64,000 bases of DNA. Origin: an uncultured Clostridia bacterium (GTDB taxonomy: Bacteria; Bacillota; Clostridia; Oscillospirales; Acutalibacteraceae). This document shows positions 4,538-57,835 of this stretch, piece by piece. Every line of letters begins with the position of its first letter. The stretch's first letter is position 1. The position numbers and the translations under genes were made by a program. The stretch covers positions 248,001 to 312,000 of the forward strand of contig CALWIK010000002.1 of NCBI GenBank assembly GCA_944380725.1, read 5' to 3'. The notes beneath the pieces were generated by a model. It was not told the DNA's origin. It ran no database searches and worked only from the letters and a program-made list of their open reading frames with translations.

Positions 4538-5011
4538 TTATTTAGAAATTTCTAAAATTTCGTAAGACATTGAACCGGCTGGTGTTTCTATTTCTACCAT
4601 ATCACCAACTTTATGCCCAATTAATCCTTTGCCCACAGGCGATTCATCCGAAATTCGCCCATTAACAGGGTCAGCCTCGCTAGAACCTACAATTTTGTAA
4701 TCGCATATATCGTCAAAATCAATATCACGTACTTTAACTTTTGAACCAACATGGATAATTTCTGTGCTAAGTTCATCTTCATTAATTATTTGTACATTTT
4801 TCAACATGTTTTCGATAGCAGCTATTCTAGCTTCTACAATTGCCTGCTCATTTTTGGCCTCATCGTACTCGCTATTTTCAGATAAATCACCAAAAGATAA
4901 TGCAACCTTTATTTTTTCGGCAATTTCTTTACGTTTAACAGTCTTTAATTCTTCAAGTTCCGCTTCTAAATTTTTAAGTCCTTCATCAGTAAGCAAGACC
5001 TGTTTAGTCAT
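4538..5011 (-). CDS. greA: Transcription elongation factor GreA
   Basis: Rescues backtracked RNA polymerase by stimulating transcript cleavage through the secondary channel. From ATG 5011 it is 157 residues, the standard GreA length: an N-terminal coiled coil with tip acidic residues ([14 protein letters not shown] at about 40-55) and a C-terminal FKBP-like domain ending [26 protein letters not shown] about ten bases upstream supports this start; a longer reading from 5062 adds 17 unrelated residues and lacks a ribosome site. It is first gene of a greA-lysS pair. Confidence 0.96.
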
Positions 5012-5283
5012 TTTTACACAAACCACCTTTTTAATTAAGATTATTTCTAAACAACATACCAATTATAATGTAGTTGTTATGTTGTGTCAAGACAGATTTT
5101 TTAAATCAAAGCAAATTTTTGGAAATAAAATTTTAGAATACACCATCTAGTTTATTAAAAGATCTTATACAAAAATATTCAAAATTAACAACTAAGTTTC
5201 TACAAACTTTTTCTTTTGCCTCCGTTACAATAAAAAATACGAACAGCAAACGTGCCATTCGCATTTTTAAATTTATATTATAC

Positions 5284-6540
5284 TTAATATTCATTCATAG
5301 GGTTATAATCTACACCATTATATTTTGTTTGAAAATGCAGATGCGGTCCAGTAGAGTAACCTGTGCTTCCTACTTCTCCGATTTTATCTCCTTTTTTTAC
5401 TTCTTGTCCTTTAGTGACATAGACTACAGATAAATGCCCATAAATTGAAACTTTGCCATTTCTGTGAGATATAATAACATAATTACCGTATCCTCCTCCA
5501 CAACCGCAGCTGCGCAATTTCCCATAATCATGTTTGCATCCACTAAAAGATGTTATAACCACTCCATCATCAACAGCAACTACACTTTCGCCATAAATTC
5601 CAAGTCCAGCAATATCTATTCCTTTATGATATACGCTCCCACGTTTTTCATTGTATTTAGAAGACAAAGTTCTGCAGCTAGGAACAGGCCAAATAAAATT
5701 CCCTTTTTCTATTGATACATTAGAACTAACACTTAATTTTAGAGCGTTAACCTCTGATCCTTTTCGAATTTCTTCTTTGCGTTTTTTCTCTGCCTCTTCT
5801 GCTAAATATTTATCAATTTCATTCTGTATTTTTTTATACTCAGCGTCCGTTTCATCTAGTTCTGCCTGGAGTAATGATTGTTCACCCTCTAGTTTTTTTA
5901 ATAGAGATTCGTTTTCAGATAAAAGTTCTTTTAATTTAGCTTCTGTTTTATTTAAACTTTCCAGCTCAGATGCAAGTTTGTTTTCTTCTTCAGACAAAGA
6001 ATTTTTCATGTCCTCCCAATATTTAACATCAGACTTCAAAGAATTTAATAGCCGATTATCATGTTCACCAACTTTAGAAATTATCTCAGCTTTGTCAATA
6101 AAATCCTCAAATGTTTTGGCATTAAGAACCAAGTCTATCAAATGGACTTCGCCTGCTTTATATACAGCAACTAATCTTTGTTTAAGAATTTCCGTTCCTT
6201 CAGCTATAGATTTTTCTTTATCAGCAATATTGTTTTTTATTTGATTTATTTGCGTTTTTAAACTATTAATATTTTCGCTTAATTTAACTTTTTTTTCTTT
6301 AGTTTCCAAAATTTGATTATTAACAAGATCGTATTGTTGTCGTGTGTTTTCATTCTTTTTTTGAGTTTCTTTTAACGTTTTTTCTATGCTTCTCTGCTTA
6401 GACTTTAACTTATCTTTTTTAGACTTATGTTGATTTATGTCAAAAAGAGAAGTAGAGCAAGATCCAAGGTAAAAAAAGTAGTTGCTGGTAAAGAAAAAAT
6501 TTGCACAGATTAATAGTGAAAAAATTTTCTTACCATCCAA
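5284..6540 (-). CDS. Secreted coiled-coil M23 peptidase, EnvC-like murein hydrolase partner of FtsEX
   Basis: Probable FtsEX-controlled murein hydrolase or activator acting in the cell wall at division. The 418 residues hold an N-terminal hydrophobic export signal (about 1-35), a long charged coiled coil (about 40-265), and a C-terminal LytM/M23 domain (about 300-410) with HKGIDIAG and GPHLHFQ zinc-ligand motifs, so catalysis is likely intact. A Cys-rich insert (CKHDYGKLRSCGCGGG) interrupts the M23 domain. The start overlaps the end of ftsX by 11 bases and ftsE lies upstream, giving a tight ftsE-ftsX-peptidase operon, the arrangement expected of an EnvC/PcsB-type partner. Confidence 0.9.
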   Translation of the reverse strand: MDGKKIFSLLICANFFFTSNYFFYLGSCSTSLFDINQHKSKKDKLKSKQRSIEKTLKETQKKNENTRQQYDLVNNQILETKEKKVKLSENINSLKTQINQIKNNIADKEKSIAEGTEILKQRLVAVYKAGEVHLIDLVLNAKTFEDFIDKAEIISKVGEHDNRLLNSLKSDVKYWEDMKNSLSEEENKLASELESLNKTEAKLKELLSENESLLKKLEGEQSLLQAELDETDAEYKKIQNEIDKYLAEEAEKKRKEEIRKGSEVNALKLSVSSNVSIEKGNFIWPVPSCRTLSSKYNEKRGSVYHKGIDIAGLGIYGESVVAVDDGVVITSFSGCKHDYGKLRSCGCGGGYGNYVIISHRNGKVSIYGHLSVVYVTKGQEVKKGDKIGEVGSTGYSTGPHLHFQTKYNGVDYNPMNEY

Positions 6541-12730: not shown

Positions 12731-12786
12731 TGTTGCTTTATATTAACTTTTTGTATATAATATTATTAAATTTAAAAATCTAAATG

Positions 12787-13056
12787 CGTTGAGGAAGATT
12801 AGTATTCAGTCTTTTTTAATATTAGAGAGAAAGTATATTAGCTGAGAATACTTTTTATTAAAGGGCTGAAGAATGCACTTTTGAGCTTATAGAAGGAACC
12901 AATTTTAGGCTTTTTGCCTGATTTTAAAGTATTTCTATACGGATGACTACCGTTATCTAGTTTTTGAGCGATAAATCGGAGTGGGACCGTGGCAAAGGAA
13001 ATTTGTTGCCGCCTCTGTATTTCTAGTTTCAGAAATATAGGGGCTTTTGTTTTTGC
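12787..13056 (+). promoter_or_regulatory. T-box riboswitch, cysteine specifier, upstream of cysS
   Basis: Leader that senses uncharged tRNA-Cys. Visible parts in order: stem I start GAGGAAGATTAGTA, the AAAGTATAT bulge region, a specifier loop GAATGCAC with UGC (Cys) at 12874-12876, the T-box TGGGACCGTGGCA at about 12982-12994, and an intrinsic terminator (13011-13055) whose arm GCCTCTGTATTTCT pairs with AGAAATATAGGGGC before a T-rich run. Binding of uncharged tRNA at the T-box should disrupt the terminator. Specifier identity agrees with the downstream gene. Confidence 0.93.
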
Positions 13057-13113: not shown

Positions 13114-14535
13114 ATGAAAATTTATAACACCATGACGCGAAAAAAAGAGGAGTTTTTGCCAATAAAGCAAGGAACAGTCAAAATATATTCTTGCGGACCT
13201 ACGGTTTATAATTATATTCATATAGGAAACTCCAGGCCACTTTGTGTTTTTGATGTTTTAAGAAGATATCTTGAATATAGAGGAATGAAGGTTGACTTTG
13301 TTCAAAACTTTACGGATATTGATGATAAAATAATAAAAAAAGCAAACGAAGAAGAAACAGATTATAAAATTATAGCTCAAAAATATATAGAAGAATATAA
13401 AATTGATGCTAAAGGTCTTAATATAAAAGAGGCAACAATGCATCCTAAAGTTACTGAGAACATCGAAGAGATTATCGCGGTAATAAAACATTTAATAGAA
13501 AATGGGTCGGCTTATAAAACAAAAAATGGAGACGTATATTTTAGAACCAGACGTTTTAAGCAATATGGAAAATTATCTCATCAACCACTAGAAGAGTTAG
13601 AAGCAGGAGCTAGGATAGCTGTCGAAGAACTAAAGGAAGATCCTATGGACTTTGCGTTGTGGAAAGCTAAAAAAGCTGGAGAACCTTACTGGATCTCTCC
13701 ATGGAGTGAGGGTCGACCTGGGTGGCATATTGAATGTTCTGCAATGGCTAATAAGTATCTTGGCAAGACTATAGATATACATTGTGGTGGGCAGGATTTG
13801 ATTTTCCCACATCATGAGAACGAAATTGCGCAAAGTGAGTGCTGCAATGGTGTCACGTTTGCAAACTACTGGATGCATAACGGATATATTAATGTGGATA
13901 ACAAAAAAATGTCCAAATCACTCAATAATTTCTTTACCGTACGAGAAGTTGCTAAAAAATATGGTTACGAGCCGATTAGATTTTTGATGTTGTCTGCCCA
14001 CTATAGAAGTCCTATAAATTATAGCAAGGAAATTATCGAACAATGCATTGCTTCTTTAGAAAGATTGTATGCTTGCAGAAATAATCTAAAATTTATTTTA
14101 GAAAAGTCAAAGATTGATGAGTCAGCATATGAAATGAAACTACGAGGAAAGTTACTGTCGTATAAATTTAAATTTATTGAGGCAATGGATGATGATCTAA
14201 ACACAGCAGATGCTTTGTCGATTTTATTTGATTTAGTACGTGAAATAAATGCAAACATTAATATGAAGGCAAATACGTCAAAATCGACAATTAAGTTTGC
14301 GCTAGATTTGTTTGATGAATTGGCAGATGTTTTAGGTTTGGTATATAATAAAAAAGAAGAATCTTTAAATTATGAGATTGAACAATTAATAGAAAAAAGA
14401 CAATTAGCACGTAAAAATAAAGATTGGTCAACTGCAGATAAAATACGTGACGAATTAAAAAATAGAAATGTTGTACTTGAAGATACTCCTCAAGGTATAA
14501 AATGGAGATTTATAAAAAGTGTTACTAAAGTATGA
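13114..14535 (+). CDS. cysS: Cysteinyl-tRNA synthetase
   Basis: Class I synthetase that charges tRNA-Cys. The 473 residues contain the zinc Cys of SCGPTVYN (about 27), HIGN at 36-39, the WHIECSAM zinc/substrate motif, GGQDLIFPHHENEIAQ, and KMSKS at about 266-270, followed by the helical anticodon-binding domain. AAAGGAG precedes ATG 13114. It is regulated by the upstream Cys T-box and is followed by mnmA 32 bases later, a sulfur-linked pairing. Confidence 0.98.
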   Translation: MKIYNTMTRKKEEFLPIKQGTVKIYSCGPTVYNYIHIGNSRPLCVFDVLRRYLEYRGMKVDFVQNFTDIDDKIIKKANEEETDYKIIAQKYIEEYKIDAKGLNIKEATMHPKVTENIEEIIAVIKHLIENGSAYKTKNGDVYFRTRRFKQYGKLSHQPLEELEAGARIAVEELKEDPMDFALWKAKKAGEPYWISPWSEGRPGWHIECSAMANKYLGKTIDIHCGGQDLIFPHHENEIAQSECCNGVTFANYWMHNGYINVDNKKMSKSLNNFFTVREVAKKYGYEPIRFLMLSAHYRSPINYSKEIIEQCIASLERLYACRNNLKFILEKSKIDESAYEMKLRGKLLSYKFKFIEAMDDDLNTADALSILFDLVREINANINMKANTSKSTIKFALDLFDELADVLGLVYNKKEESLNYEIEQLIEKRQLARKNKDWSTADKIRDELKNRNVVLEDTPQGIKWRFIKSVTKV

Positions 14536-24953: not shown

Positions 24954-26003
24954 TCATTTAGACAATATATTTTTTTGTTTTATAATAAAAATACAAAGGA
25001 TAGTAAGAATTATTGTAGCGGCAAAAAATAAAATAAAGTTAAAAGAATTTTCTTTAATTACAAGTGGTGCAGAAGAGTTCTGCAATTCGACACTATTATT
25101 TTGAGCAACATCTTTATTTAACAGCTCATCGGTGTAATTTTTATTATCATTAGTACTTATACTTTCATCTAAAGCATTAATATCGGTGTATTTATCATGC
25201 TCAGCGTCATTGGAAGCATTTTTACTTAGCCTATTAACTGTTACAGTATAAACTTTTTTAGATTTTTTATCTGCAGAAGTAACAGTCAAATTGATATCTG
25301 TAGTGGTGCCAGCACTTTTTAAAGTTTTTCTATTAGCCTTAACAGTTGCTTCCTGGTCCAGAGGAATCGCTTCAAATTCCATAGTACTTTTTGAATATGG
25401 CACTTCAACGGAATATTTAGTGATATCTGAAGAAAAAACCGGAGATAATTTATATTCTGCAGTAGAAAGTACAGCAAGATCGCAATTTCCCTCACCAGAT
25501 TGAGCAACATTGATCGTTACAGGATCGATTTCTGGCAAAGGAATAGCCTCAGCCTCATAATTACATATACCATCGATTACAGCAGATATACTATTAGTGC
25601 CAACTTCACAATTTGACAACACTTTAAAATTTAGCTCTAAAACAATTTTAGACTCGCCAATACTTAAATCAATCCCGCGTTCAGAAGTTACATATAAAAT
25701 AGTTAGGTTATTCCCATCCGTATAACTTTCGAAATCGTCATTATTTATGTAAGAATAAAGCCCTTTGTATGTTAATTTTGAGCTATCAAATTTGACTTTT
25801 AACCTATAAGCAGAAATATTTATAGGCTCGTTAGCAACTGAAAAGTTCAAACTAACAGTGAATTCTTCTCCACTAACAGGAAAAATATTATCACAAAGTA
25901 AAGATATCTCCAGAGCACCATCATTATAAGCTAGCCCTTTTTGAGATAAAAAAAAGCAAGCTATAAAACATAAATATAACATAATTTTTAGTCGGTTCAA
26001 CAA
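24954..26003 (-). CDS. Membrane-anchored surface protein with cohesin-like and cadherin-like domains
   Basis: About 349 residues from TTG 26003, which sits ten bases after an AAAAGGG site (an in-frame TTG at 26012 touches that site). Order: signal peptide (RLKIMLYLCFIACFFLSQKGLA), a cohesin-type beta sandwich (about 30-165, with VKFDSSKLTYKG and LNFKVL), a cadherin-like beta-sandwich domain (about 175-260, CDLAVLSTAEYKLSPVF to KVYTVTVNR), an Asn/Asp-rich linker, and a C-terminal helix with a KQK tail. No LPXTG motif, so it is held by the helix. Cohesin-like domains can bind dockerins; no dockerin is visible in the window, so the partner is unknown. Confidence 0.75.
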   Translation of the reverse strand: MLNRLKIMLYLCFIACFFLSQKGLAYNDGALEISLLCDNIFPVSGEEFTVSLNFSVANEPINISAYRLKVKFDSSKLTYKGLYSYINNDDFESYTDGNNLTILYVTSERGIDLSIGESKIVLELNFKVLSNCEVGTNSISAVIDGICNYEAEAIPLPEIDPVTINVAQSGEGNCDLAVLSTAEYKLSPVFSSDITKYSVEVPYSKSTMEFEAIPLDQEATVKANRKTLKSAGTTTDINLTVTSADKKSKKVYTVTVNRLSKNASNDAEHDKYTDINALDESISTNDNKNYTDELLNKDVAQNNSVELQNSSAPLVIKENSFNFILFFAATIILTILCIFIIKQKNILSK

Positions 26004-26121
26004 AATTACCAATCCCTTTTTATTTTTAATCTAATAAATTATATCATATTCCCATGGAACTGCTCAATATTTGATTAATTTTAAATTATTAGAAAAATAT
26101 TTTTAAAAATTATATAACTTG

Positions 26122-27303
26122 CTACAAAGTTTTATTTTTTTTCTTTTTAACCAAAAAAACTATTAAATATAGCAAAATAAATCCAATCAAAACGGTAATC
26201 AACGCATAAGGATTGTTTTGTTCCCCAGTTTTTACATTTACCCAAAGAGAATCAATAAATGAATTTAATTCATCAGGTAAAGCTGTAAATAACTGAGTAT
26301 TTTTTAATATTTGCTCATCAGGATAACATATTTTATTGTTCGCAACTTTTTTGTCAAGTTGATTTTTCACTACAGATTCTGGAGACGAATACCCAATATA
26401 CTTTATATTCTCTGCCGCAATTTTAGGTTCGCACATAAAATTTATATAAGTCAAAGCTTCGGCTGGATGCTCGGCGTTTTTAGGAATACACATAGCGTCA
26501 ACAAATTTATTGGAGCCTTCTTTCGGAATAACAAAACCAATTTCTTTGTTACGCTCCAACAAAGTTGCGGCATCACCGTTATAATATGGAGCCAATGCAG
26601 CTTCTCCGTTAGCCATTTTATCAAAAATCTGGTCCATAACATAAGCTTGCACAAGTGGTTTTTGCAGCTTTAAATCTTCTGCTGCCTTTATCCAGTCACT
26701 TTTATTTCTAGAGTTCAGCGAGATTCCTAGCCTAATTTGAGAAATTGCGAAAGCATCCCTAGGATTGTCAAACATCAATATTTTGCCTGAGTATTTTTTA
26801 TTCCACAATATATTCCAATTTATATCTTTTTCTTCTTCAGCAACCAGGTTTTTATTATAAAATATTCCGACTAGCCCCCAAGTATATGGTACAGAATATT
26901 CATTTGTAGGGTCATACGCTGGATATTTAAAAGAATCGTCTACATAAGAATAGTTGGAAATTTTTTTAAAATCAAGCTTTTGTAGCATATCCATTTTAAT
27001 CATTTTAGATACCATATAATCAGAAGGTATAATTACATCGTATTTGGCTCCACCATTTTGTATTTTTGCAAAAAGCGATTCATTACTTTGAAATGTGCTA
27101 TAATTTACGTATATTCCAGTTCTTTTTGTAAATTCTTCGTTTACATTTAAAGACCCATTTGTACCGTCAGAAATATATTCGCCCCAATTATAAACATTTA
27201 TTATGATTTTGGATTTCTTATTATTTTTGTATAAAACAAAGCTCAAAATAATAATAGAAAACAAAAAAAATATAACTATAAAAAAAATTAACTTTTTTTT
27301 CAA
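26122..27303 (-). CDS. potD: Spermidine/putrescine-binding protein PotD, anchored by helices
   Basis: Extracytoplasmic binding subunit of the polyamine ABC importer. The 393 residues match PotD (NVYNWGEYISDG near the start, YDVIIPSDYMVSKMI, VPYTWGLVGIFYN). Two oddities are visible: the N-terminal hydrophobic stretch has no lipobox Cys, and the C-terminus adds a second helix with a KKKKNKTL tail (about residues 365-393). It is therefore likely tethered at both ends and not a lipoprotein. TTG 27303 follows AGGTGA by eight bases. Last gene of potA-potB-potC-potD. Confidence 0.93.
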   Translation of the reverse strand: MKKKLIFFIVIFFLFSIIILSFVLYKNNKKSKIIINVYNWGEYISDGTNGSLNVNEEFTKRTGIYVNYSTFQSNESLFAKIQNGGAKYDVIIPSDYMVSKMIKMDMLQKLDFKKISNYSYVDDSFKYPAYDPTNEYSVPYTWGLVGIFYNKNLVAEEEKDINWNILWNKKYSGKILMFDNPRDAFAISQIRLGISLNSRNKSDWIKAAEDLKLQKPLVQAYVMDQIFDKMANGEAALAPYYNGDAATLLERNKEIGFVIPKEGSNKFVDAMCIPKNAEHPAEALTYINFMCEPKIAAENIKYIGYSSPESVVKNQLDKKVANNKICYPDEQILKNTQLFTALPDELNSFIDSLWVNVKTGEQNNPYALITVLIGFILLYLIVFLVKKKKNKTL

Positions 27304-27332
27304 CCTTTATTTCACCTGATTTCGTAGAAAAA

Positions 27333-28130
27333 TTATTTATGAGTTTTAATCTGTTTAAAATTTGCTGCCAGTAGCAACAAAAACACAACCGCAAATAAAA
27401 TTGTAGATATGGCATTTATTTCCGGACTAACCACTTTTCTAGTCATAGAATATATCGCAATCGGCAAAGTTTGCACTGTTCCGCTTGTAAAATAGCTTAT
27501 AACGAAATCATCCATCGACAGTGTAAAAGCCATAACCATTCCACTTGAGATCCCTGGCATAATATCTGGCAAAACAACCTTTAAAAAAGCTCTAAAAGGG
27601 TTGCAACCTAAATCTTGAGCGGCTTCATAAATATATGGATTAATTTGACGAAGTTTTGGCAAAACAGACAAAACAACATAAGGCAAACAAAATGTTGTGT
27701 GAGCCAAAATTAGTGTAAAAATTCCTGGCCTAAAAATTTTAAAATTATTATAAGAAAAAACAAACAGCAACATTAGTCCCACACCAGTAACGATTTCTGG
27801 ATTCACTATAGGAATATTATTTATATTCATAACCAATTTTTTTGAAAGTTTCTTCATTTTTAAAATGCCCAAACAAGCAATTGTTCCAATAACAGTAGCT
27901 AAAATAGAAGCTGCCGTAGCAACGATTATAGTATTAAAAATAGCGTGTAAAATTTCTTTGTCCGAAAATAATTTTATATACCACTTTAAAGAAAATCCAT
28001 TCCAAACGCTGCGGCTTTTTGAATCATTAAAAGAGAAAATAATTAAAACTGCGAGCGGAGAATATAAAAAAAAGAAAATCAAGCTCATATATATCTTATA
28101 TATTAATTTAGATTTCAAATTTAACAACAT
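27333..28130 (-). CDS. potC: Spermidine/putrescine ABC transporter permease PotC
   Basis: Membrane subunit of the polyamine importer, 265 residues with six helices and the EAA loop YEAAQDLGCNPFRAFLKVVLPDIMPGI (about 160-190) that docks on PotA. The exact start is unsure: ATG 28130 touches an AAAAAGGA site, and in-frame TTG codons follow within 12 bases. It is 29 bases upstream of potD and 18 bases after potB. Confidence 0.94.
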   Translation of the reverse strand: MLLNLKSKLIYKIYMSLIFFFLYSPLAVLIIFSFNDSKSRSVWNGFSLKWYIKLFSDKEILHAIFNTIIVATAASILATVIGTIACLGILKMKKLSKKLVMNINNIPIVNPEIVTGVGLMLLFVFSYNNFKIFRPGIFTLILAHTTFCLPYVVLSVLPKLRQINPYIYEAAQDLGCNPFRAFLKVVLPDIMPGISSGMVMAFTLSMDDFVISYFTSGTVQTLPIAIYSMTRKVVSPEINAISTILFAVVFLLLLAANFKQIKTHK

Positions 28131-28148
28131 TCCTTTTTTATTTTTTCA

Positions 28149-28970
28149 CTATTTAAGCTTAACTCCATCAAAATTTTCGTCAGAATCATCAAATTGGTTC
28201 ATGATTCCTATAGAAATAAAAATAAGAACCATCAACACAAAAGAAATTGCCGAGCCAAGATTGGGGTTATATGTACTACCTAAAAACTGCATTTCAATAA
28301 GGTCTCCAATTAAAATATTTGAACCGCCACCAAGCATTTTAGATATAATAAAAGTGCTAACAGCCGGCACAAAAACCATAGTAATCCCAGATATAACTCC
28401 CGGCAAACTAAGTGGTGCTAATACTTTAAGAAACACATTACGCTTACCAGCACCTAGGTCCTGTGCAGCCTCAACAATACGCTTATCTATTTTTACTATA
28501 GCAGCGTAAATAGGTAAAATCATATACGGCAAAAAGTTGTATATCATTCCTAAAACAACTGCGCCAGAGGTATTTATAAACGAAATCGGTTTAATGCCGA
28601 ATATTGACAAAAATTTATTTAAAAGGCCATTATTTTCTAAAATTGTCATCCAAGCGTAAGTTCTGAGCAAAAAATTTATCCACATAGGCAGCATTATAAG
28701 CATAATGACGATATTTTGTTTACTTGATGAGATTTTTGATATAATATAGGCCAATGGATATCCAAGAATAAGACAAATAATGGTAGAAATAGCTCCTAAG
28801 CCAATGGAAAGTAAAAATACATTCGAATAACGGCCAACATTAAGGATATTTTCTAAGGTAAAGTTTCCAGATTTATCGGTAAAAGCAAAAATAAAAATTA
28901 AAGCTAAAGGAATTATCGTAAAAATGAACATCCATATTATATAAATTATCGAAAAGTTTTTTATTTTCAT
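28149..28970 (-). CDS. potB: Spermidine/putrescine ABC transporter permease PotB
   Basis: Second membrane subunit, 273 residues, six helices, with [13 protein letters not shown] (characteristic of PotB) and the EAA loop [27 protein letters not shown]. The C-terminus carries an acidic tail ([16 protein letters not shown]). Its start overlaps the potA stop by four bases, so potA and potB are translationally coupled. Confidence 0.94.
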
Positions 28971-30115
28971 TTTTTTTCACTCACATTACAACTACAGTCA
29001 TACAGCAAATTTTCTTCATAAATTTCATACATTTCATCACTAAAAGCACTGTAGTCACCGTATTCTCCTGAATGCTCAGATTTTTTCATTATATGTATAT
29101 CATCTGGCTGCAAAATAAGACCGATAACATCTCCAGGTTTTTGACTGTCTGTTGATTGAATCATCCACTTAAATCCATCAATGTCTACGATAATTTCGTA
29201 GTGTACCCCAATAAAAGTAACAGATGTAACGGTGCCAGAGATATGGCCATTTTCTGGTGAAGTAACCTCGATATCCTCAGGCCGAATAACAACATCAACT
29301 TTTTCGTCTTTAGCAAAACCAGCGTCAAGACATTTAAACTTTCTTCCCGCAAATTCAACCAAATAATCGTCATGCATAATTCCGTCTATAATATTACTTT
29401 CTCCGATAAAGTCTGCAACAAAAGCGTTAGTGGGTTCGTTATAAATATCTTGAGGCGAACCAATTTGCTGTATATTACCGTTATCCATAACAATAACCGT
29501 GTCCGACATAGAAAGCGCCTCCTCTTGATCATGAGTAACGAAAATAAAGGTAATTCCCATCTTTTGTTGAATTTTTTTAAGTTCAACTTGCATATCCTTA
29601 CGCAATTTTAAGTCCAAAGCACCTAGGGGTTCATCCAACAGTAGAACTTTGGGATTATTTACAAGTGCTCTAGCAATAGCAACGCGTTGTTGTTGGCCAC
29701 CAGACAAATTCGCGATATTTCTTTTTTCGAATCCAGACAAACTAACCATTTTGAGCATTTCTTGTACTTTGTTTTTTATTTCAGCCTCAGTTTTTTTCTG
29801 TATTCTCATACCAAAAGCGATATTTTCATATACATTTAAATGGGGAAAGAGTGCATAGTTTTGAAAAATAGTATTAACCTCACGTTTATGAGCCGGAAGT
29901 TTAGTAACATCCTTACCGGCAAAAAAAATGCTACCACTATCCGGCTGAACAAACCCTGCAATTATACGTAAAATCGTAGTTTTTCCACAGCCAGATGACC
30001 CAAGAAGTGTAACAAAATCTTTATTTTTTATATCGAGATTTAAATTTTTTAAAATGGTATTTCCATTAAACGAAACTGTAATATTTTTTAAAGAGATTAT
30101 CGTATCTTTTTTCAA
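28967..30115 (-). CDS. potA: Spermidine/putrescine ABC transporter ATP-binding protein PotA
   Basis: ATPase that powers polyamine import. From TTG 30115, preceded by AAAGGGGAT, it is 382 residues; a longer frame to 30160 adds 15 residues without a ribosome site. Walker [18 protein letters not shown] signature, Walker [13 protein letters not shown], switch [14 protein letters not shown], then the C-terminal TOBE regulatory domain (about 270-355). A short acidic, Tyr-rich extension follows ([17 protein letters not shown]). First gene of the operon, divergent from the ATP/ADP translocase. Confidence 0.95.
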
Positions 30116-30296
30116 TTTTTTATCCCCTTTTAGTTTAAGAAAAGCACAGAGTTTAAACACTTATAAAATGATAATTTGAAAATTATAAAATGTCAACATA
30201 AGATATAATGCATTCTCAAAAAAAATAATAAACAAATAAAAATAGGCGAAATTATAGTAGTATTTTACGGAATTATAAGTTGAATTTTAAAAAGAC

Positions 30297-30325
30297 TTGA
30301 ATGTGTTTGAATTTTTTGATATAAT
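30297..30325 (+). promoter_or_regulatory. Promoter of the ATP/ADP translocase gene
   Basis: TTGAAT (30297-30302), exactly 17 bases, then TATAAT (30320-30325). It is 175 bases before the start codon, which implies a long transcribed leader. Confidence 0.7.
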
Positions 30326-30334
30326 TTTTATGTC

Positions 30335-30444
30335 TTGCGGAATAAAATATTGGTATTATTATAATTTTGCAAAGGAGGTATCCCTTTTTTTGATATTTCT
30401 TTGAATTTTATACCAGATTTTTTGATTTTTAATCAAAACCGCAA
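30335..30444 (+). promoter_or_regulatory. Structured 5' leader upstream of the ATP/ADP translocase
   Basis: The transcript can fold as a three-way junction. P1: TTGCGG (30335-30340) pairs with CCGCAA (30439-30444). P2: TGGTAT (30351-30356) pairs with ATACCA (30410-30415). P3: TTTTGATT (30420-30427) pairs with AATCAAAA (30431-30438) and abuts P1. Within P2, AAAGG (30371-30375) can pair with CCTTT before a T run, a terminator-like element that also holds an AAGGAGG tract at 30372-30378 that is followed by no gene, only a possible four-codon frame at 30390. The real ribosome site of the gene is the AAGGAG at 30484. No known riboswitch class is recognised. Confidence 0.45.
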
Positions 30445-30500
30445 AAATTTATAAATATCTAACTTTAAAATAAGTTTTTAAATAAGGAGAATGTAAAAAA

Positions 30501-32015
30501 ATGACAACCCAAGAACAAGCTCAACCTAGAGAGTTTAATAAGTTTCAAGAATTAATTTGGCCTATACATAACTATGAGCTAAAAAAATTCTTGCCGATGA
30601 ACTTTTTAATGTTTTTTATACTTTTTGTATATACTTTGGTCCGAGATTTAAAGGATATTTTTGTCCAGTACCACACCAATATATGGGCTGGAGCTGGCAA
30701 AGCAGATACTGCTCAACTCATTAGCGCACTTAAAGTATGGTATGTTATGCCGGCGGCTTTTTTGGCTGTTATTGCTTTTAACTATTTAATGAATAAATTT
30801 GATTCTCAAAAAACATTTTATATAATAATTTCTTCTTTTATAATCTTTTATATAATATATGGTTTTTTGCTTTATCCTAATCTTGATAACTTGATCATGT
30901 CTTCAGAACAAATTACTGCAATGACTGAAGCTGCACCTTCTTTTTTTAGAACATTTCTTACTTGTTTGGGCAACTGGCCAACTACTATATTTTATATTAT
31001 ATCAGAAATTTGGGGAACAATGGCTATTTCATCATTGTTTTGGCAGTTTGCTAACGCTTCTACCATGAAAAAAGAAGTAAAAAGATTTTTTGGTTTATTT
31101 TCTTTAGTTGGCAACATCGGAACAATTATTGCCGGACTTACTATAAAGACTGCATTAAAAGATGCTTCTGTTTCTAATGTTAGAATGCTTATGATAACTG
31201 TTTTTCTAGTAGGACTAATCATTATGGCTATTTATTGGTATATAAATAATAAAGTCTTAACAGATCCAAGATTTTTTGATGCATCTCAAGTTAAACCTAA
31301 AAAGAAAAAAGAAAAAGTTAGCATGTTTGAAGGTATCAAAATTTTATTTACAAATTCTTATTTACTCTTGATTGGTGTGCTTGTTATAGGTTATGGAATT
31401 GCAATAAATTTTGCAGAAGTCATTATGAAAGCACACATGAAAGAAGCTTTTGATGGCCCAGGATACGCCTCTATGCAGGGTAATATTTCTATATTTACTG
31501 GGATATTTTCAATATTTGTTGTTTTGATAGGTGCCTTTATTTTAAGAACTTGTAAGTGGAGAACCTCTGCAGTTATTACACCTCTAATGTTTTTAATTTT
31601 GGGTGGAATATTCTTTACGTTGGTTCTTTATAGAAAATTTGTTGCAGCAGAGATCTTCGGTATGTCTGCACTTATTTTGGCAACTTGGGTAGGAATTATT
31701 CAGGATGCATTGTGTAAAAGTATTAAATATTCTCTGTTTGATACAACTAAAAGCATGGCGTATCTTCCTCTTGATGAAGATACAAAGACTAAAGGTCAGG
31801 CTGCAGTTGAAGTTATTGGAGGAAGAGCCGGCAAGGCTGGAGCATCTCTTATTCAGCAGATTATGTATGGAATAGTGCCAAACATAATGTATCATATTGT
31901 TCCAATTGTAGGAATTTTTACTGCCACTGTTGTTGCGTGGATATTCTCTGTATTTAAATTGAGCAAAAAATATGAAAAAGCAATCGCTGCTAATAACGAA
32001 GAAGAACTAAAATAA
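30501..32015 (+). CDS. tlc: ATP/ADP translocase, NTT (Tlc) family
   Basis: Nucleotide transporter of 504 residues that, in characterised relatives, exchanges host ATP for bacterial ADP across the membrane; other NTT paralogues import nucleotides or NAD. About eleven to twelve helices. Family motifs seen: the first-helix region FILFVYTLVRDLKDIFV (about 36-52), FWQFANASTMKKEVKRFFGLF (about 178-198), and LFDTTKSMAYLPLDEDTKTKGQAAVEVIGGRAGKAGASLIQQ near 415-455 (shown in the family as the LFDPTKEMAY region). Both halves are intact. AAGGAG lies before ATG 30501; own promoter and terminator. The NTT family is rare outside obligate intracellular bacteria and plastids, so horizontal acquisition is likely. 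ATP/ADP specificity is inferred. Confidence 0.95.
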   Translation: MTTQEQAQPREFNKFQELIWPIHNYELKKFLPMNFLMFFILFVYTLVRDLKDIFVQYHTNIWAGAGKADTAQLISALKVWYVMPAAFLAVIAFNYLMNKFDSQKTFYIIISSFIIFYIIYGFLLYPNLDNLIMSSEQITAMTEAAPSFFRTFLTCLGNWPTTIFYIISEIWGTMAISSLFWQFANASTMKKEVKRFFGLFSLVGNIGTIIAGLTIKTALKDASVSNVRMLMITVFLVGLIIMAIYWYINNKVLTDPRFFDASQVKPKKKKEKVSMFEGIKILFTNSYLLLIGVLVIGYGIAINFAEVIMKAHMKEAFDGPGYASMQGNISIFTGIFSIFVVLIGAFILRTCKWRTSAVITPLMFLILGGIFFTLVLYRKFVAAEIFGMSALILATWVGIIQDALCKSIKYSLFDTTKSMAYLPLDEDTKTKGQAAVEVIGGRAGKAGASLIQQIMYGIVPNIMYHIVPIVGIFTATVVAWIFSVFKLSKKYEKAIAANNEEELK

Positions 32016-32065
32016 ATTTTTATTAATTAAATGTTTTTATATTATTTAACTTTATTTAATTGACT

Positions 32066-32115
32066 AGAAAGAGCTTGCCGATGTTGTTATCGTTAGCAAG
32101 CTCTTGAGTTTTTAT
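32066..32115 (+). terminator. Intrinsic terminator of the translocase gene
   Basis: AAGAGCTTGC pairs with GCAAGCTCTT (ten bases, perfect) around a 17-base loop, followed by GAGTTTTTAT. Confidence 0.88.
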
Positions 32116-33317
32116 AAAAATCTCTACCAGGTAACATTATACAAAAAAATAAAATGTAAAAAAGTATGTGTAGAAATTATATTACTACTTCAATAAGTGT
32201 AGTTACGTTGCGAATTAATGATTGTACTTTTTTACTAACAAAATGGGGTAATGCGAGAAGATTACATTTGAAATTTTAGACCTTTGAAAAATAATATAAC
32301 TTGAACCTTAGTGGTTTCGCTTAATCTAAATAATAAACTTTAATCTATTTTTTACATTTCTGCTTCGCTGCACTGTTTTTCAACTTTTTTCTTACTTTAT
32401 ATTTTGCAGCTTGTTATCTTTTTCCTCTTTGTTCATGCCTGCGCACTGAATTTCTAATTTTTGGCTGCTTCTCTAAATTTCTAACAGTAACACTTTCGTT
32501 ATCATTTTTCAAATGGTCCATAGAGAATCATCAATATTTTGATTTCCATACACAAATCTTTGAAAAACATCAATTCTAGCGCCACTTTGTATGCTTCTAC
32601 TGAGAGATTTTCTATAAATAAAATTTGTGGTCGTTCTATCGATTTTTTTCTTTTGAAGATGTCATAAAAAAGCTGTTTTATAAATTCTGCATGTTTTGTA
32701 TTTTATTTCCCTAATATTAGACCATATAAATTTGAAACATGAAATGGCATGATAGAAAAATTTTGTGAACTTTTGATAAAATGCAACTGCTAAATATATG
32801 CACTCTCTAAAGATAAACAATTGCATACAAACTATAAATCCTAAAAATTCAAATATCTATAACGTAGAGTTTAACATACCTTAAGTGGCATTTAATAAGG
32901 TAATTTAATGCCACTTCTCAGGGATAAAAAATGCTAAAACAGTTTTCACTGTTTGCACAGCACAATGAATATATTATTGTACTTAGCTAGTTAAAAATTA
33001 CGATCAAAGCCCTCATTATGAATTTTTTCATTACTCTGTCTACAAATTTTGGAGCATGAAAATTTGCAGTTTGTCAAAATTTTATAATCTAACCTTTTCA
33101 AGATTTAAGTCTTATAAATAATTATAATAAAGATCTTAAGTATTTTATAACTACTCTAACTGATATGTATAACCAATAGAGAAATTTGAGAAAACTCAGT
33201 AATAATGCAAAAATTTGAGCCAGCTAAAATGTTTACAAAAAAAAGCTATCTAACACATTTTGATAAACTTTAATGAATTAGTATAGCACAAAACTACATG
33301 ATAAGGGTTGTCATAAT
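32116..33317. other. Gene-poor stretch with probable decayed coding sequence
   Basis: About 1.2 kb with no intact gene, RNA gene or repeat that I can support. On the minus strand, 32502-32692 is an open run of about 63 codons without a start, reading FIKQLFYDIFKRKKSIERP and then IENLSVEAYKVALELMFFKDL. The composition is protein-like and frames on either side continue in pieces up to about 32340, which suggests an eroded gene; I cannot name it. The remainder is AT-rich and featureless. Confidence 0.35.
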
Positions 33318-34067
33318 TTAGCCTTGTCTGCCATCTTTGTTTGAAACATATAAATCAAATCCATAAGCTGGCAAAAAAGTTTTTATAAAATATTGCACCG
33401 AGTCGATTTTTATTGATAAAATCTTTTCTGAAATTTCTTCTAATGGCTTATCAAAATCTTTATTTCCTAATTTTTTTTCGCGGAGACATTTTATAAGAGC
33501 AGAAATTTTATCAGCAGCCTTTACTAATTCCACTAATTCTTTATCATTTTCGGTAGGTATCATCAAAGATGCATATACTTGCCTTATTTCAACATCGTCT
33601 ATCAAACTTAACATTTCGCACGATACTTGATTTTCAATTTGTGTATAAAGCGGTTTCATTCCAGAAACACCATACTTTATTGTTGAAGGCATATCTCCCG
33701 TTATTATTTCCGTTATATCATGGAACATGCCTAAAACAGCTGCTCGCTCGGCATTTAAATGTCCACCGAATTTAATATTGGTTATAATTGCTAAAGTATA
33801 TGCTATCATACTTACTTCAAAACTATGGTGTTCTAAGTCTTCCCTTTCTAAATTTTGCAAAAGTGACCACCTATATACATATCTTAATCTTGAAATCAAA
33901 CTAAAAAAAGAATTATTGGGAGGCAAACTCTTGTCGTAAACCGTATTTATAGTGTCTGTCAAATTAATTTCAGATTTTTGAATCTCTTTTGCGACAACTA
34001 AATCACTGAATAATCCCATAACGAAACTAAATGACAAAAGCCCTACAATAAACCTATATTTTTTCAT
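33318..34067 (-). CDS. YfbR-like HD-domain 5'-nucleotidase with an N-terminal signal peptide
   Basis: HD-domain phosphohydrolase of 249 residues. Residues about 55-245 match the YfbR 5'-deoxynucleotidase fold (FSLISRLRYVYRWSLLQN, HHSFEVSMIAYTLAII with metal His near 81, and HD at 116-117 in FHDITEIITGDMPS), and the metal ligands look intact. Ordinary YfbR is a cytoplasmic enzyme of about 195 residues. This one has about 50 extra N-terminal residues that start MKKYRFIVGLLSFSFVMG and read as a signal peptide with an LVVAKE cleavage-like site. It would therefore act outside the cytoplasm, on nucleoside monophosphates. It lies close to the ATP/ADP translocase; a shared role is inference. Confidence 0.85.
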   Translation of the reverse strand: MKKYRFIVGLLSFSFVMGLFSDLVVAKEIQKSEINLTDTINTVYDKSLPPNNSFFSLISRLRYVYRWSLLQNLEREDLEHHSFEVSMIAYTLAIITNIKFGGHLNAERAAVLGMFHDITEIITGDMPSTIKYGVSGMKPLYTQIENQVSCEMLSLIDDVEIRQVYASLMIPTENDKELVELVKAADKISALIKCLREKKLGNKDFDKPLEEISEKILSIKIDSVQYFIKTFLPAYGFDLYVSNKDGRQG

Positions 34068-35128: not shown

Positions 35129-36307
35129 CTAAAGAACATTTTTTAATCTACCGGCGGCATTTAAAATGTCTGTTCTTTCGCCAAATGAAGTAAGCCTAAA
35201 AAAGCTCTCACCATTTTTGCCAAATCCGGATCCTGGCGTACCTATGACATATGCTTTTTCTAATAAAAAGTCGAAAAACTCCCAAGAAGTTATACCATCC
35301 GGGCATTTAAACCATATATATGGAGAATTTTTACCTCCAACAAAATATATTTTTCTTTCAGTCAACACCTTAGCAATAAGTTTTGCATTTTCTTTATAAT
35401 AATTTATGTTCTCTTTAACTTGATTCATTCCTTCGCTTGAGAAAACTGCTGCTGCACCTCTTTGCACCACATAAGATACCCCATTAAATTTTGTGGACTG
35501 CCGTCTAAACCACAAATTGTTTATTGAATTCCCTTCAAAAGTTAATTCTGTAGGAACTATTGTATATCCGCACCTGACTCCAGTAAAGCCTGCTGTCTTT
35601 GAAAAAGAGCAGAATTCTATTGCGCATTTGTTTGCTCCTTCAATTTCAAAAATACTTCGTGGCAAACTATCATCAGAAATAAAGGCCTCATACGCTGAAT
35701 CAAACAAGATTATTGCTTTGTTATCTAAAGCATAGTCTACCCATTGCTTAAGTTGTTTATAATTGTAAACAGCTCCAGTGGGATTGTTTGGCGAGCACAA
35801 ATAAATTATGTCTGAATGAATAGACTTATCCGGCAGCGGCAAAAAATCATTTTCTTCATTGGCATTTATATATTGTATCTTTCTGCCATCCATTACGTTA
35901 GTATCTACATACACGGGATACACTGGGTCTGGCACCATAACAGAATTTTCTTTTGAAAATACATCCAAAATATTAGAAACGTCACTTTTTGCTCCATCAC
36001 TTACAAAAATTTCGTCAAGATCTAGCTCTACATTTCTTCTAGCATAATAATTTTTTATTTCAGAACGCAAAAAATCGTACCCCTGATATGGCCCGTACCC
36101 TTTAAATGTTTCTTTTTTACCCATTTCTAAAACAGCATACTGCATAGCTTTAACAACTTCAGGACACAACGGCAATGTTACATCTCCAATGCCTAGATTG
36201 ATTACTTTTACTGTTGGATTTTTTTCTGCAAATTCGCTAGATTTCTTGGCAACATCCGCAAAAAGATAGTTGTCTTTAAGATTTAAATAATTTGAATTTA
36301 TTTTCAT
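35129..36307 (-). CDS. dapL: LL-diaminopimelate aminotransferase
   Basis: PLP enzyme that makes LL-diaminopimelate in one step from tetrahydrodipicolinate and glutamate, for lysine and peptidoglycan. The 392 residues are the family length, with INLGIGDVTLPLCPEV near the start, GYGPYQGYDFLR, the SPNNPTGAVY motif, DSAYEAFI and the PLP lysine in SFSKTAGFTGVRCGY. GAAAGGAC precedes ATG 36307. It is third in dapF-pyrG-dapL, which links both dap enzymes. Confidence 0.97.
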   Translation of the reverse strand: MKINSNYLNLKDNYLFADVAKKSSEFAEKNPTVKVINLGIGDVTLPLCPEVVKAMQYAVLEMGKKETFKGYGPYQGYDFLRSEIKNYYARRNVELDLDEIFVSDGAKSDVSNILDVFSKENSVMVPDPVYPVYVDTNVMDGRKIQYINANEENDFLPLPDKSIHSDIIYLCSPNNPTGAVYNYKQLKQWVDYALDNKAIILFDSAYEAFISDDSLPRSIFEIEGANKCAIEFCSFSKTAGFTGVRCGYTIVPTELTFEGNSINNLWFRRQSTKFNGVSYVVQRGAAAVFSSEGMNQVKENINYYKENAKLIAKVLTERKIYFVGGKNSPYIWFKCPDGITSWEFFDFLLEKAYVIGTPGSGFGKNGESFFRLTSFGERTDILNAAGRLKNVL

Positions 36308-38924: not shown

Positions 38925-39530
38925 ATGTTAAACTTTATAGAAAAATCTTTAATTTCTGGACTTTTGATAGTTCTTCTTCTTAACCTAACAACCTTCGCTA
39001 ATAATTGTGACGATCTTAGTACAAAAGTTTTGCGGTTGCACATTATTGCAAACTCCGACTCTAAAGATGACCAGGAGCTTAAAATAAAAGTTCGAGATAA
39101 AATCATTGAAAAATCAGGAAATTTTTTGAGCAGCGCTAAAGATAAAGAATCTGCGCAGAATTTGGTTCTAAATAATTTAGAAAATCTAAAAGAAATTGCA
39201 GAATCTGAAATAAAACATCAAGGATTCAATTATTCGGTAAACTCAGAAGTTACCAATATGTACTTTCCGACCCGAAAATACGACTACATTACTCTGCCTG
39301 CAGGCCATTACGACGCATTGAGACTTATAATAGGTGAAGGCAAAGGCAAAAATTGGTGGTGCGTGATCTTTCCTCAAATGTGTTTGGGTTGTGCAAAAAA
39401 ATATACAGACACCGATACTGTTTTTAATAGTTCAGAAAAGGATATAATCAGCAATAGCGAAAAATACGAAATTAAATTTAAAATCGTTGAATGGTTTTAC
39501 TCGTTAAAAGATAAAATATCAAGTTTATAA
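38925..39530 (+). CDS. spoIIR: Stage II sporulation protein R
   Basis: Forespore-made signalling protein that, in endospore formers, triggers SpoIIGA to process pro-sigma-E. The 201 residues carry a signal-peptide helix (about 8-26), then LRLHIIANSDSKDDQELKIKVRD (family signature, about 36-58), and LPAGHYDALRLIIGEGKGKNWWCVIFP (about 125-150). The C-terminus is as in other SpoIIR. Its presence shows an endospore-forming ancestry and, if the rest of the pathway exists elsewhere, possible sporulation. No sigma-F promoter was recognised with confidence. Confidence 0.95.
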   Translation: MLNFIEKSLISGLLIVLLLNLTTFANNCDDLSTKVLRLHIIANSDSKDDQELKIKVRDKIIEKSGNFLSSAKDKESAQNLVLNNLENLKEIAESEIKHQGFNYSVNSEVTNMYFPTRKYDYITLPAGHYDALRLIIGEGKGKNWWCVIFPQMCLGCAKKYTDTDTVFNSSEKDIISNSEKYEIKFKIVEWFYSLKDKISSL

Positions 39531-55051: not shown

Positions 55052-56950
55052 ATGAAAAAAATAATCAAAACTCAAATATTAAAAAAGTTATTTTCAAGTG
55101 TTTTGCCTTTGGCATTTTTATTTGTAACAACGTGCCAAGGCAACATTGCCCACGCTGCATTTAGCACAGTTAACGCTTTACCTGATTCTACAGATGGATC
55201 TCTAACAGATATAAAGTCTGGCGGAACAAGAAATTTTACTGGATATAATAATAGCACTGGTAAATCCGGCGGTAAAGGTATGCTTGCTTACAACAATGAT
55301 ACAAGCACGTTGACTTTAACCGATATCGATATATCTACAACAAATGGCTTGTTTGAAGCTACTGGTAGCGGTGCTGAGGATATTCTTATTATTAACTTGG
55401 TTGGTGAAAATAAAATCTCTTCCTCAAAAGCGACTATTAAACTAACTTCTGGCAGCATTAAATTCACCGGTTCTGGTTCTTTGACTATTAATCAAACTGG
55501 TGCTTATAGTGCTATCTCTACTGTAACTGCTGGAAATATAGAGTTCGCTCAAGCTGGTAAAATTGCCATTACTCATGGATCTAACTCAGCTGCTATAGCT
55601 ACTGCAGCGGCTACTGACTCAATTACGATTACCTCTGGTTCGTTATCTGTTACTAAGAGTGACCAAGGATCAGCCATAGACTCGAAAGGTCCTTTCAATT
55701 TAAATGGCGGAACCGTTAGCTTGACTGAGTCTTCTGGTACTTCTGGTGAGGCTCTGTCCGTAGCGAAAAAATGTAATTTAAACAGCGGGTCGTTAACTAT
55801 TATTCAAAAAAGTAATAATTCGGCGCTTAAGGTAACCGAAGCTTTCAAAATGTCTGGCGGAACCGTTAAGATTGAACAGACTGGTGATGCTATTGCAGTT
55901 GACTTGTCCGGTGCGGTTACTGTTAGTGGCGGTACTTTAACTGTTTCTCAGTCTGCCGCTAAGAATGCTATAAAATCTGCTTCTACTTACACTCAAACTC
56001 TTGGATCCATTATTGTAAACCAAAATGGTGGCGATAATGCGATGAGTTTCGAAGGTGTTTTCACCATGGAGGGTGGCTATATAGAATCAATTAACACATC
56101 TGATACTCAAGGTGCTCTGCACTTCAAGGATAATGCGTCGATCTCAGGTGGCCGTATAAAAGCTCGAATTAATAATGAAACAAATACGAATTCTCCAATT
56201 TATGTTGACGCAAGCAAGGAACTTACTGTGTCTAATGCAGTTATCTCTTCTCTAGGAGGTGCACAGAGTGCATACGGCATTGGTTTGGCTTCTGATGCTA
56301 AAATTGTAGTAAATTCAGGCCAACTTGAAGCTTTCGGTAATAGCAATGGTATTAACACAAGCCTTCTCACACTTGCTTCGAATGTCGAATGGACTGCTTT
56401 AGTTGGAGCCTCTGCTTCTAACACTAAACAAATTAATCCAAAAATTGCAACCGACCTTGGCACATTTGACTACGTTAAACTCTACAATGCATCTTCCTTA
56501 GCTCCTGCTACTTCAGTGTTCGACAAAAATACTAATGCTAAAGAGCACACTGAGATCACTGTTAAACTTAATCTCAACGGTAATAAATTAACTGGAATCT
56601 CTCTTGGCAAAACTCAGCTGACTTCTGGTAAAGAGTTTACCGAAAATATGGTTTCTGGTTCTTCAGACATTGAGTCAGTTACCTTAGAGGTTAGAGAGTT
56701 TTTAGATAGTTTGGCAGTTGGAACTCATACTTTAACTTTTGCCTTCGATAACGGAACTTCTGCCGCTTTTACTCTTGAAGTGGTTGATACTGCTCAGTCT
56801 AGTGACACAACACAATCTAATGACGCAACTCAAAAAGATGATGTTCCAAAAACTGGAGATCAGTCTAATGTAATGCTCTATGTTCTATTGCTTAGCGCCG
56901 GATTGTTCTCAATTATTTTGGCTAACAAGAAAAAACTTTTTAATAAATAA
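55052..56950 (+). CDS. Large secreted beta-helix surface protein with a sortase signal
   Basis: A 632-residue extracellular protein. Signal peptide (about 1-36, ending AHAAF), a repeat region (about 60-470) of units like SGSLTINQTG and SGGTVKIEQTG that matches a parallel beta-helix or carbohydrate-binding repeat, an X2-like carbohydrate-binding domain (about 505-580), a Asp/Ser/Gln-rich linker, then the sorting signal VPKTGD at 598-603, a hydrophobic span and a KKKLFNK tail. The strong GGAGAG site is upstream. The sortase gene directly downstream is probably dedicated to it. A role in adhesion or in binding host glycans is inferred. Confidence 0.87.
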   Translation: MKKIIKTQILKKLFSSVLPLAFLFVTTCQGNIAHAAFSTVNALPDSTDGSLTDIKSGGTRNFTGYNNSTGKSGGKGMLAYNNDTSTLTLTDIDISTTNGLFEATGSGAEDILIINLVGENKISSSKATIKLTSGSIKFTGSGSLTINQTGAYSAISTVTAGNIEFAQAGKIAITHGSNSAAIATAAATDSITITSGSLSVTKSDQGSAIDSKGPFNLNGGTVSLTESSGTSGEALSVAKKCNLNSGSLTIIQKSNNSALKVTEAFKMSGGTVKIEQTGDAIAVDLSGAVTVSGGTLTVSQSAAKNAIKSASTYTQTLGSIIVNQNGGDNAMSFEGVFTMEGGYIESINTSDTQGALHFKDNASISGGRIKARINNETNTNSPIYVDASKELTVSNAVISSLGGAQSAYGIGLASDAKIVVNSGQLEAFGNSNGINTSLLTLASNVEWTALVGASASNTKQINPKIATDLGTFDYVKLYNASSLAPATSVFDKNTNAKEHTEITVKLNLNGNKLTGISLGKTQLTSGKEFTENMVSGSSDIESVTLEVREFLDSLAVGTHTLTFAFDNGTSAAFTLEVVDTAQSSDTTQSNDATQKDDVPKTGDQSNVMLYVLLLSAGLFSIILANKKKLFNK

Positions 56951-57043: not shown

Positions 57044-57835
57044 ATGGAAAAACCAGATTTTGATGAAAAAAAATTTTTAAAACTAGCTCTTATTATGGCT
57101 GGTATCGCTATGATTTTCTCCTCTATAAATTCAATTTTTTTAATATATAGTAAGCCTAAAATTCCTTATAAAAGCGAAGCAGCTAATGAGTTTATTTATA
57201 AAAAAGATAGTAAACCGATTTCTGCTGCTGAATCTACTGTTTGCGAGCAGTCTACTAAAAACATGATGCCTAATATGCAAGATCTACACGAAAAAAATAA
57301 TGACATAGTTGGCTGGATAAAAATAGAAGACACAATTATAGATTATCCTGTTATGTTTACACCAGATGATGCGTTTTATCTTTACCGAAATTTTTATAAA
57401 AATAAAGACATAAACGGCAGTATTTTTATTGATAAGCATTGCCACTTGTCCCCAAGAGACACTAACCTTATCTTTCATGGACATAATATGAATAATGGTT
57501 CAATGTTTGGTGCTCTTATAAAATATAAATCAAAAAATTTTTATGCTTCTCATCGGCAGATCTTATTCGATACTCTATATGAAAATCAGGTTTATGAAAT
57601 TGTCTCGGTGTTTATTTCAAAAGTTTATAATGTAAGTGACAACGTTTTTAAGTACTATCGGTTTTATAATGCTAAAAATCAGGAAGAGTTTGACTATTTT
57701 TATAATAATATAAAGCAGATGTCGCTTTACGATATCGATATTAAGGCCCAGTTTGGTGACGAATTTATTACTCTCTCTACCTGTGAAAATTCCATTAAAA
57801 ATGGACGCTTCGTTGTTGTTGCAAAAAAAATATAG
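57044..57835 (+). CDS. Class B sortase
   Basis: Membrane transpeptidase that would link the upstream surface protein to the wall. The 263 residues start with a helix (about 12-34), followed by the sortase beta barrel with NNDIVGWIKIEDTIIDYPVM (typical of class B), catalytic His at about 145/147 in FHGHNMNNGSMFG, Cys at 247 in TLSTC and Arg in NGRFVVVAK. AAGGAATG precedes ATG 57044. Usual class B substrates carry NPQTN-like signals; VPKTG would be atypical. Confidence 0.94.
   Translation: MEKPDFDEKKFLKLALIMAGIAMIFSSINSIFLIYSKPKIPYKSEAANEFIYKKDSKPISAAESTVCEQSTKNMMPNMQDLHEKNNDIVGWIKIEDTIIDYPVMFTPDDAFYLYRNFYKNKDINGSIFIDKHCHLSPRDTNLIFHGHNMNNGSMFGALIKYKSKNFYASHRQILFDTLYENQVYEIVSVFISKVYNVSDNVFKYYRFYNAKNQEEFDYFYNNIKQMSLYDIDIKAQFGDEFITLSTCENSIKNGRFVVVAKKI

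Follow-up and report, generated by a model that had tools for sequence, protein, structure and literature searches.

The window, that is, the whole stretch of 64,000 nucleotides analysed here (C2:248001-312000 of the genome G000), harbours an intact open reading frame with an ATG start and 0 internal stops (Table 1). In the profile search against the NTT family that an earlier note on this DNA had proposed, the encoded protein passed Pfam PF03219 (TLC) with 450.8 bits at a cut-off of 21, matching positions 4-491 of the 491 in the profile, and missed NCBIfam TIGR00769 by 4 bits; since its score of 383.2 bits is below the curated cut-off of 387.2 bits, it is not filed under the latter label. Near end-to-end matches were obtained to two NTT proteins of solved structure, 9j3n, described as 'ADP,ATP carrier protein 1' and taken by us to be NTT1 of Chlamydia pneumoniae (E 2.9e-96, residues 8-496, 37.1% identity over aligned positions), and the chloroplastic 9j3j, presumably NTT1 of Arabidopsis (E 1.1e-77, residues 23-492, 33.8% identity over aligned positions). 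Together with the PF03219 score, these matches confirmed the note's claim of a full-length NTT gene.

A crude hydropathy count gave 11 transmembrane segments for the protein; members of the NTT family have about 12 transmembrane helices. The residues K155, E245, E385 (which we take to be functionally important) and K527 of AtNTT1 correspond to K78, E169, E306 and K445 of the window's NTT (numbering offset 84 throughout), and K445 is kept in 32 of the 32 rows of the NTT alignment. With both the Chlamydia and the Arabidopsis proteins the homology extends over nearly the full length and the K/E/E/K set is shared; the sequences are far diverged. An excerpt of PMC3306366 links K155 of AtNTT1 with the binding of ADP, K527 with that of ATP and E245 with translocation. 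Comparison with the sister species G002, which together with G001 represents two other species of the genus, gave a dN of 0.020 and a dS of 0.51 (NG86), and we therefore concluded that the gene is under purifying selection. Judged by its sequence, the product is a genuine member of the NTT family and probably an exchanger.

Table 1. Features of the window (positions within the window) and of the remainder of its contig (positions preceded by C2)
Feature	Position	Strand	Basis and remarks
T-box leader before cysS	12780..13019	+	RF00230, 99 bits (gathering 93)
cysS	13114-14535		TIGR00435 match
potD-C-B-A-like spermidine/putrescine ABC transporter	26122..30160	-	divergent neighbour of NTT
Candidate sigma-70-type promoter, TTGAAT-17-TATAAT with extended TG (-10)	30297..30325	+	pattern match
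Ribosome-binding site AAGGAG	30484..30489	+	sequence; 11 bases 5' of the NTT start
NTT/TLC-type nucleotide transporter	30501..32015	+	504 aa; profile matches, solved homologues, conserved residues
Predicted intrinsic terminator, hairpin (32069-32105) and T-rich tail	32069..32114	+	folding
dapL	35129..36307	-	TIGR03542, 532.1 bits (cut-off 364.7)
spoIIR	38925..39530	+	PF09551, 166.8 bits
A/V-type ATPase operon 1	C2:171879-180479		smaller subunits by eye
A/V-type ATPase operon 2	C2:323208-331839		smaller subunits by eye

The gene had also been credited with a promoter and a terminator of its own. The terminator was corroborated: a hairpin followed by a T-rich stretch is predicted downstream of the gene (stretch 32062-32122, -20 kcal/mol, z -4.2, with 1 of 200 shuffles equally good), and it is a hairpin that a simple motif scan does not list. 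For the promoter, a candidate site is present; however, the region 30100-32400 has no clear excess of such sites (15 observed versus 12.8 expected by chance, sd 4.1), and because of this a promoter of NTT's own at the candidate site is rated as plausible. Among the pot-like genes on the other strand, potA was assigned by TIGR01187 (378.9 bits, cut-off 355.6), potD as an extracellular solute-binding protein, and potB and potC by eye and by synteny. Profile matches for spoIIR, dapL and the T-box before cysS bore out the Clostridia setting described in the note, and dapF was also found by profile search.

Several other genes of the window were observed. A YfbR-like 5'-deoxynucleotidase (33318-34067, minus strand, 203.6 bits) is encoded near NTT and carries an N-terminal extension of 52 residues resembling a signal peptide; it is possibly an exported nucleotidase. 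Beside the pot genes there is a gene for a protein that combines a cohesin domain and a cadherin-like domain (24954-26012, minus strand), and a gene for a CBM_X2 protein (55052-56950, plus strand) is followed by one for a sortase-domain protein (57044-57835, plus strand).

NTT matches were found in 23 of 398 genomes sampled from the family, belonging to 10 of 135 genera, and in 0 of the 14 control genomes. The NTT-bearing genomes range from 0.8 to 2.0 Mb, and G000 has one match only. The phylogeny with outside references that the note had suggested placed the window's protein among its Clostridia relatives: in a tree with three non-clostridial references, of which 10 of the 29 inner branches are open, it grouped with the proteins of G002, G001, G066, G071 and G189 and with the second copies of G382 and G205 (100/100), and the sequences of Chlamydia, Arabidopsis and a Ca. 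Megaera plasmid stood together outside (95/85). The Ca. Megaera sequence was the one match of a plasmid search; no NTT relatives were found in viral contigs or phages at the settings used. A free quick tree of RpoB from 30 genomes (21 NTT-positive and 9 NTT-negative, G345 being left out) broke the NTT-positive rows up into two sets that were separated by NTT-negative genomes; when the 21 rows were constrained to one clade, lnL was 12 higher and the arrangement was not rejected (p-AU 0.818). Because some places in the NTT tree, such as that of G066, disagree with RpoB, partial transfer or paralogy of NTT is possible. G092 (L022, contig C36) and G337 (L030, contig C86) encode NTT-like proteins, about 450-460 residues long, that are divergent and lie on a very long branch (3.5 changes per column); they may represent a separate family.

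Small-genome Clostridia bearing NTT are already known. Takahashi et al. 2023 (PMC10579323) reported three clostridial endosymbionts of termite-gut flagellates together with 23 MAGs, and described a small-genome clade of Acutalibacteraceae, including Ca. Improbicoccus and Ca. Paraimprobicoccus, in which NTT is present in all but one and part of the clade has two NTT types, I and II. According to the same paper (PMC10579323), the clade MAGs are 0.86-1.4 Mb in size with one exception of 1.9 Mb and have a GC content of 30-39%, endospores were seen by microscopy in two, eukaryote-like proteins are encoded in clade genomes, and the three endosymbiont genomes have no enolase, no Rnf and no other net ATP-generating system. 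Words that start with acetate, ferredoxin or ATPase do not occur in its main text. NTT in these Acutalibacteraceae is also mentioned in an excerpt of PMC11257099; beyond PMC10579323, no further paper naming the genus was found in the collection of papers that was searched.

The genome G000 (23 contigs, 100% complete, 3.17% contamination) has a size of 1,076,667 bases and the window a GC content of 32.5%, both within the published ranges. Since size, GC content, a full-length NTT, the missing enolase and a sporulation gene, set beside the endospores of the published clade, all match in this AT-rich Clostridia genome of about 1 Mb, G000 is most probably a further member of the published group, and the link to an energy-parasitic clade that the note had drawn is upheld. 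Downstream of NTT on contig C7 of G007, a genome of a related genus, two small GTPases of the Ras family are encoded (L062:3620-4249 and 4797-5504) whose N-termini look signal-like by eye; this resembles the eukaryote-like genes in the genomes of PMC10579323. Unlike the three published genomes, which have no Rnf, G000 retains Rnf together with PFOR, PduL, acetate kinase (AckA) and two operons for A/V-ATPases, and it also has dapL, dapF and three shikimate genes (the latter by eye).

The rnfCDGEAB set of G000 is complete and is accompanied by apbE on C12, a short contig of 16.9 kb in a MAG with the contamination given above; six of the six subunits scored over their subfamily cut-offs, RnfA narrowly (236.6 versus 229.3). 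The rnf genes of G001 show the same order, with nth (by eye) as neighbour. Of the two A/V-type ATPase operons on C2, operon 2 showed no F subunit. The proteolipid of operon 1 (C2:177628-178233) has two ATP-synt_C stretches, and by eye each of its double hairpins bears only one ion-binding carboxylate, a pump-like ATPase design, whereas that of operon 2 (C2:328038-328490) has a single ATP-synt_C stretch; the two forms are a hint at different ions or directions. PFOR (1794.6 bits), a serine-dehydratase-family protein, PFK and aldolase are encoded on C2, TPI on C18, AckA on C20 and PduL on C22. A nucleoside operon (C2:313284-323044) comprises pyrimidine-nucleoside phosphorylase, deoC, deoD and deoB, together with genes that were assigned by eye to ABC transporters and to a protein resembling cytidine deaminase. 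Neither enolase nor a match to classic Pta (PF01515) was found in G000.

Gene counts were compared between 22 NTT-positive genomes, from which G325 (24 bits) was excluded, and 14 NTT-negative genomes, which were picked by hand and are not a random sample. PFOR was over the cut-off in 22/22 of the NTT-positive and 12/14 of the NTT-negative genomes, AckA was found in 21/22 and 14/14 (the gene being split or interrupted by stops in G189 and G337), PduL in 20/22 and 14/14, PGK in 22/22 and 14/14 (fragmentary in G289 and G337) and ATP-synt_ab in 22/22 and 14/14. Enolase was present in 3/22 versus 8/14 (Fisher p 0.01, ignoring kinship), and RnfD, counted by PF03116, which also covers NqrB, in 3/22 (G000, G001 and G189) versus 13/14 (Fisher p 3e-6, ignoring kinship); the match of G000 alone was confirmed by RnfD's own model. 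G092 was counted as NTT-positive although the one match it has is an NTT-like protein of divergent sequence (52.6 bits, open frame of 452 aa); when G092 is left out, the counts become 21/21 for PFOR, 20/21 for AckA, 19/21 for PduL, 3/21 for enolase and 3/21 for RnfD. Single gene absences can be explained by MAG incompleteness. Classic Pta matched in 8 of the 36 genomes, always weakly (18-28 bits) and in 4 of them over the family cut-off, and a PduL-type phosphotransacylase occurs in 34 of the 36; annotation by Pta alone would overlook the acetate route, for which PduL is present instead. As a sign of energy parasitism the loss of enolase proved to be weak, because enolase was also undetected in 6 of the 14 NTT-negative relatives (G003, G008, G023, G024, G025 and G029, of 1.1-2.3 Mb) and, as an excerpt of PMC6118326 states, its loss is known from rumen bacteria.

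The distribution of Rnf is patchy: RnfD is absent from the sister species G002 and from G071, which is of the genus of G189, and RpoB indicates at least 3 Rnf changes, either gains or losses, among nine NTT-positive genomes, those that surround the genus of the window. The RnfD sequences of G000, G001 and G189 cluster in a single clade (96/95) that groups with the NTT-negative G018, G022 and G032 (80/87), as expected from inheritance; within this clade, G189 groups with G000 and not with G001 (94/91), unlike in RpoB.

We consider it probable that the NTT is an exchanger in a clade of the published type whose member here is a part-way energy parasite, keeping ATP routes of its own, and that NTT came before the losses of Rnf. 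The bacterium would reside in or on a protist, and NTT would swap host ATP for bacterial ADP and phosphate; we infer the substrate, the direction of transport and the intracellular location. Some ATP would be gained from pyruvate, probably supplied by a serine/cysteine dehydratase and flowing through PFOR, PduL and acetate kinase; PduL and AckA would yield one ATP per acetate. Further ATP could be obtained from reduced ferredoxin by Rnf and an A/V-type ATPase, and perhaps also from host nucleosides by phosphorylases, deoB, deoC and PGK, a route that would need no prior spending of ATP since nucleoside phosphorolysis consumes phosphate. In the presumed order of events, NTT would have been gained first and Rnf then lost several times. 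Against such a part-way state stand the sister species G002, whose NTT is 96% identical and which is without RnfD, the absence of enolase from G000 as from the published parasites (although 6 of the 14 NTT-negative relatives are without it too), the position of Rnf on the short 16.9-kb contig of a MAG with 3.17% contamination, the grouping of G189 with G000 inside the RnfD clade, the narrow miss of TIGR00769, and the splitting of the NTT-positive rows in the free RpoB tree. Moreover, the presence of a gene is not the same as flux, and the A/V-ATPases may be pumps only.

The note had taken the window for a Clostridia member drawing ATP from a eukaryotic cell. The transporter and the clade link of that reading stood, with the qualification that the genome has genes for generating ATP of its own: where a strict parasite would have 'no net ATP-generating system', G000 has the genes for PFOR, PduL, AckA, Rnf and A/V-ATPases. 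More tentatively, the NTT-bearing Clostridia could be a lineage in mid-transition and not parasites devoid of ATP generation, having gained NTT while the full pyruvate-to-acetate route and Rnf with A/V-ATPase still worked and now losing both piecemeal. If so, the window's genus would be among the few still holding Rnf, and the lack of net ATP generation in the published account would reflect a late stage, or else a route overlooked because PduL has taken the place of Pta. Whether energy parasitism starts with the gain of the transporter or with the loss of the ATP supply can hardly be discerned in Chlamydiae and Rickettsiales because the steps are ancient; the order is readable in this clade because NTT is near-universal (PMC10579323) and Rnf and enolase differ between close species. 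NTT, a small genome and a missing enolase together are insufficient proof of dependence on host ATP.

It is unlikely, in our judgement, that the bacterium is a strict energy parasite in which all net ATP comes through NTT, the A/V-ATPases pump, Rnf runs backwards to reduced ferredoxin, and PFOR-PduL-AckA serves the supply of acetyl-CoA or acetyl-phosphate. The operon-1 proteolipid with its pump-like carboxylate arrangement and the 1.08-Mb genome lacking enolase would suit such a life, but the pyruvate-to-acetate and Rnf genes are intact in G000, the NTT-positive genomes have kept PFOR, PduL and AckA at the frequencies given above, and the operon-2 proteolipid has the single stretch. The published reading of three relatives is also that of strict parasites (PMC10579323). 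An import of nucleotides as building blocks, by net uptake or by another NTP/NDP exchange and not as a trade in energy, appears rather improbable: four of the four AtNTT1 residues are conserved, the top match among solved structures bears the name of an ADP,ATP carrier, and G000 has its own nucleoside salvage operon and pyrG. The substrate nevertheless varies within the NTT family, some chlamydial and rickettsial paralogues (Rickettsia Tlc4 and Tlc5) moving nucleotides as building blocks, and sequence does not settle it; TIGR00769 was just missed, and G000 has one NTT match as against the two types in part of the published clade (PMC10579323).

Export of ATP to the host through NTT is a further alternative, which we regard as very unlikely. 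It has a precedent, in an excerpt of PMC7969357, in Ca. Azoamicus ciliaticola, a reduced symbiont that likewise combines an NTT (TlcA) with ATP-generating genes and for which such a donation has been proposed; that bacterium, however, is a gammaproteobacterial denitrifier, and here a fermentative member of the Clostridia is concerned. Rnf, the A/V-ATPases, PFOR, PduL and AckA would be a possible source of the ATP, but fermentation yields little ATP, 19 of the 22 NTT-positive genomes have no RnfD, and it is as parasites that the relatives have been described. That the NTT is foreign and came to lie in a Clostridia contig by contamination or by a chimeric assembly, the circumstance that the note had named as counting against its reading, is hardly credible. 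A joint of this kind does exist on the contig, about 26.7 kb at its start (C2:1-26700; L036 and L037) having 61% GC versus 30-36% in 20-kb steps beyond, and this block is foreign or misjoined and perhaps part of the 3.17% contamination. The joint is, however, about 250 kb away from NTT, and neither the GC nor the GC3 of NTT deviates by more than 0.5 s.d. from the average of 52 ORFs of the window. NTT and the pot genes are likewise arranged divergently in G001 and G002 (3 of the 3 genomes examined in the genus), with NTT identities to the window's protein of 68.6% and 96.0%, respectively. The same pot neighbours in two other species and the completeness of the genome make a chimera unlikely, and the GC profile and synteny gave no sign of one near NTT.

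Two further observations were made by eye outside the window. Phage tail and terminase-like genes at C2:96000-108500 (L040 and L041) form an apparent prophage in this reduced genome. L055 encodes a pair of leader peptides of the Nif11-like type, each with a GG motif (508-801 and 828-1121), and C39-peptidase-like ABC exporters are encoded elsewhere, at G000:C2:143656-148700; together they may constitute a peptide natural product system.
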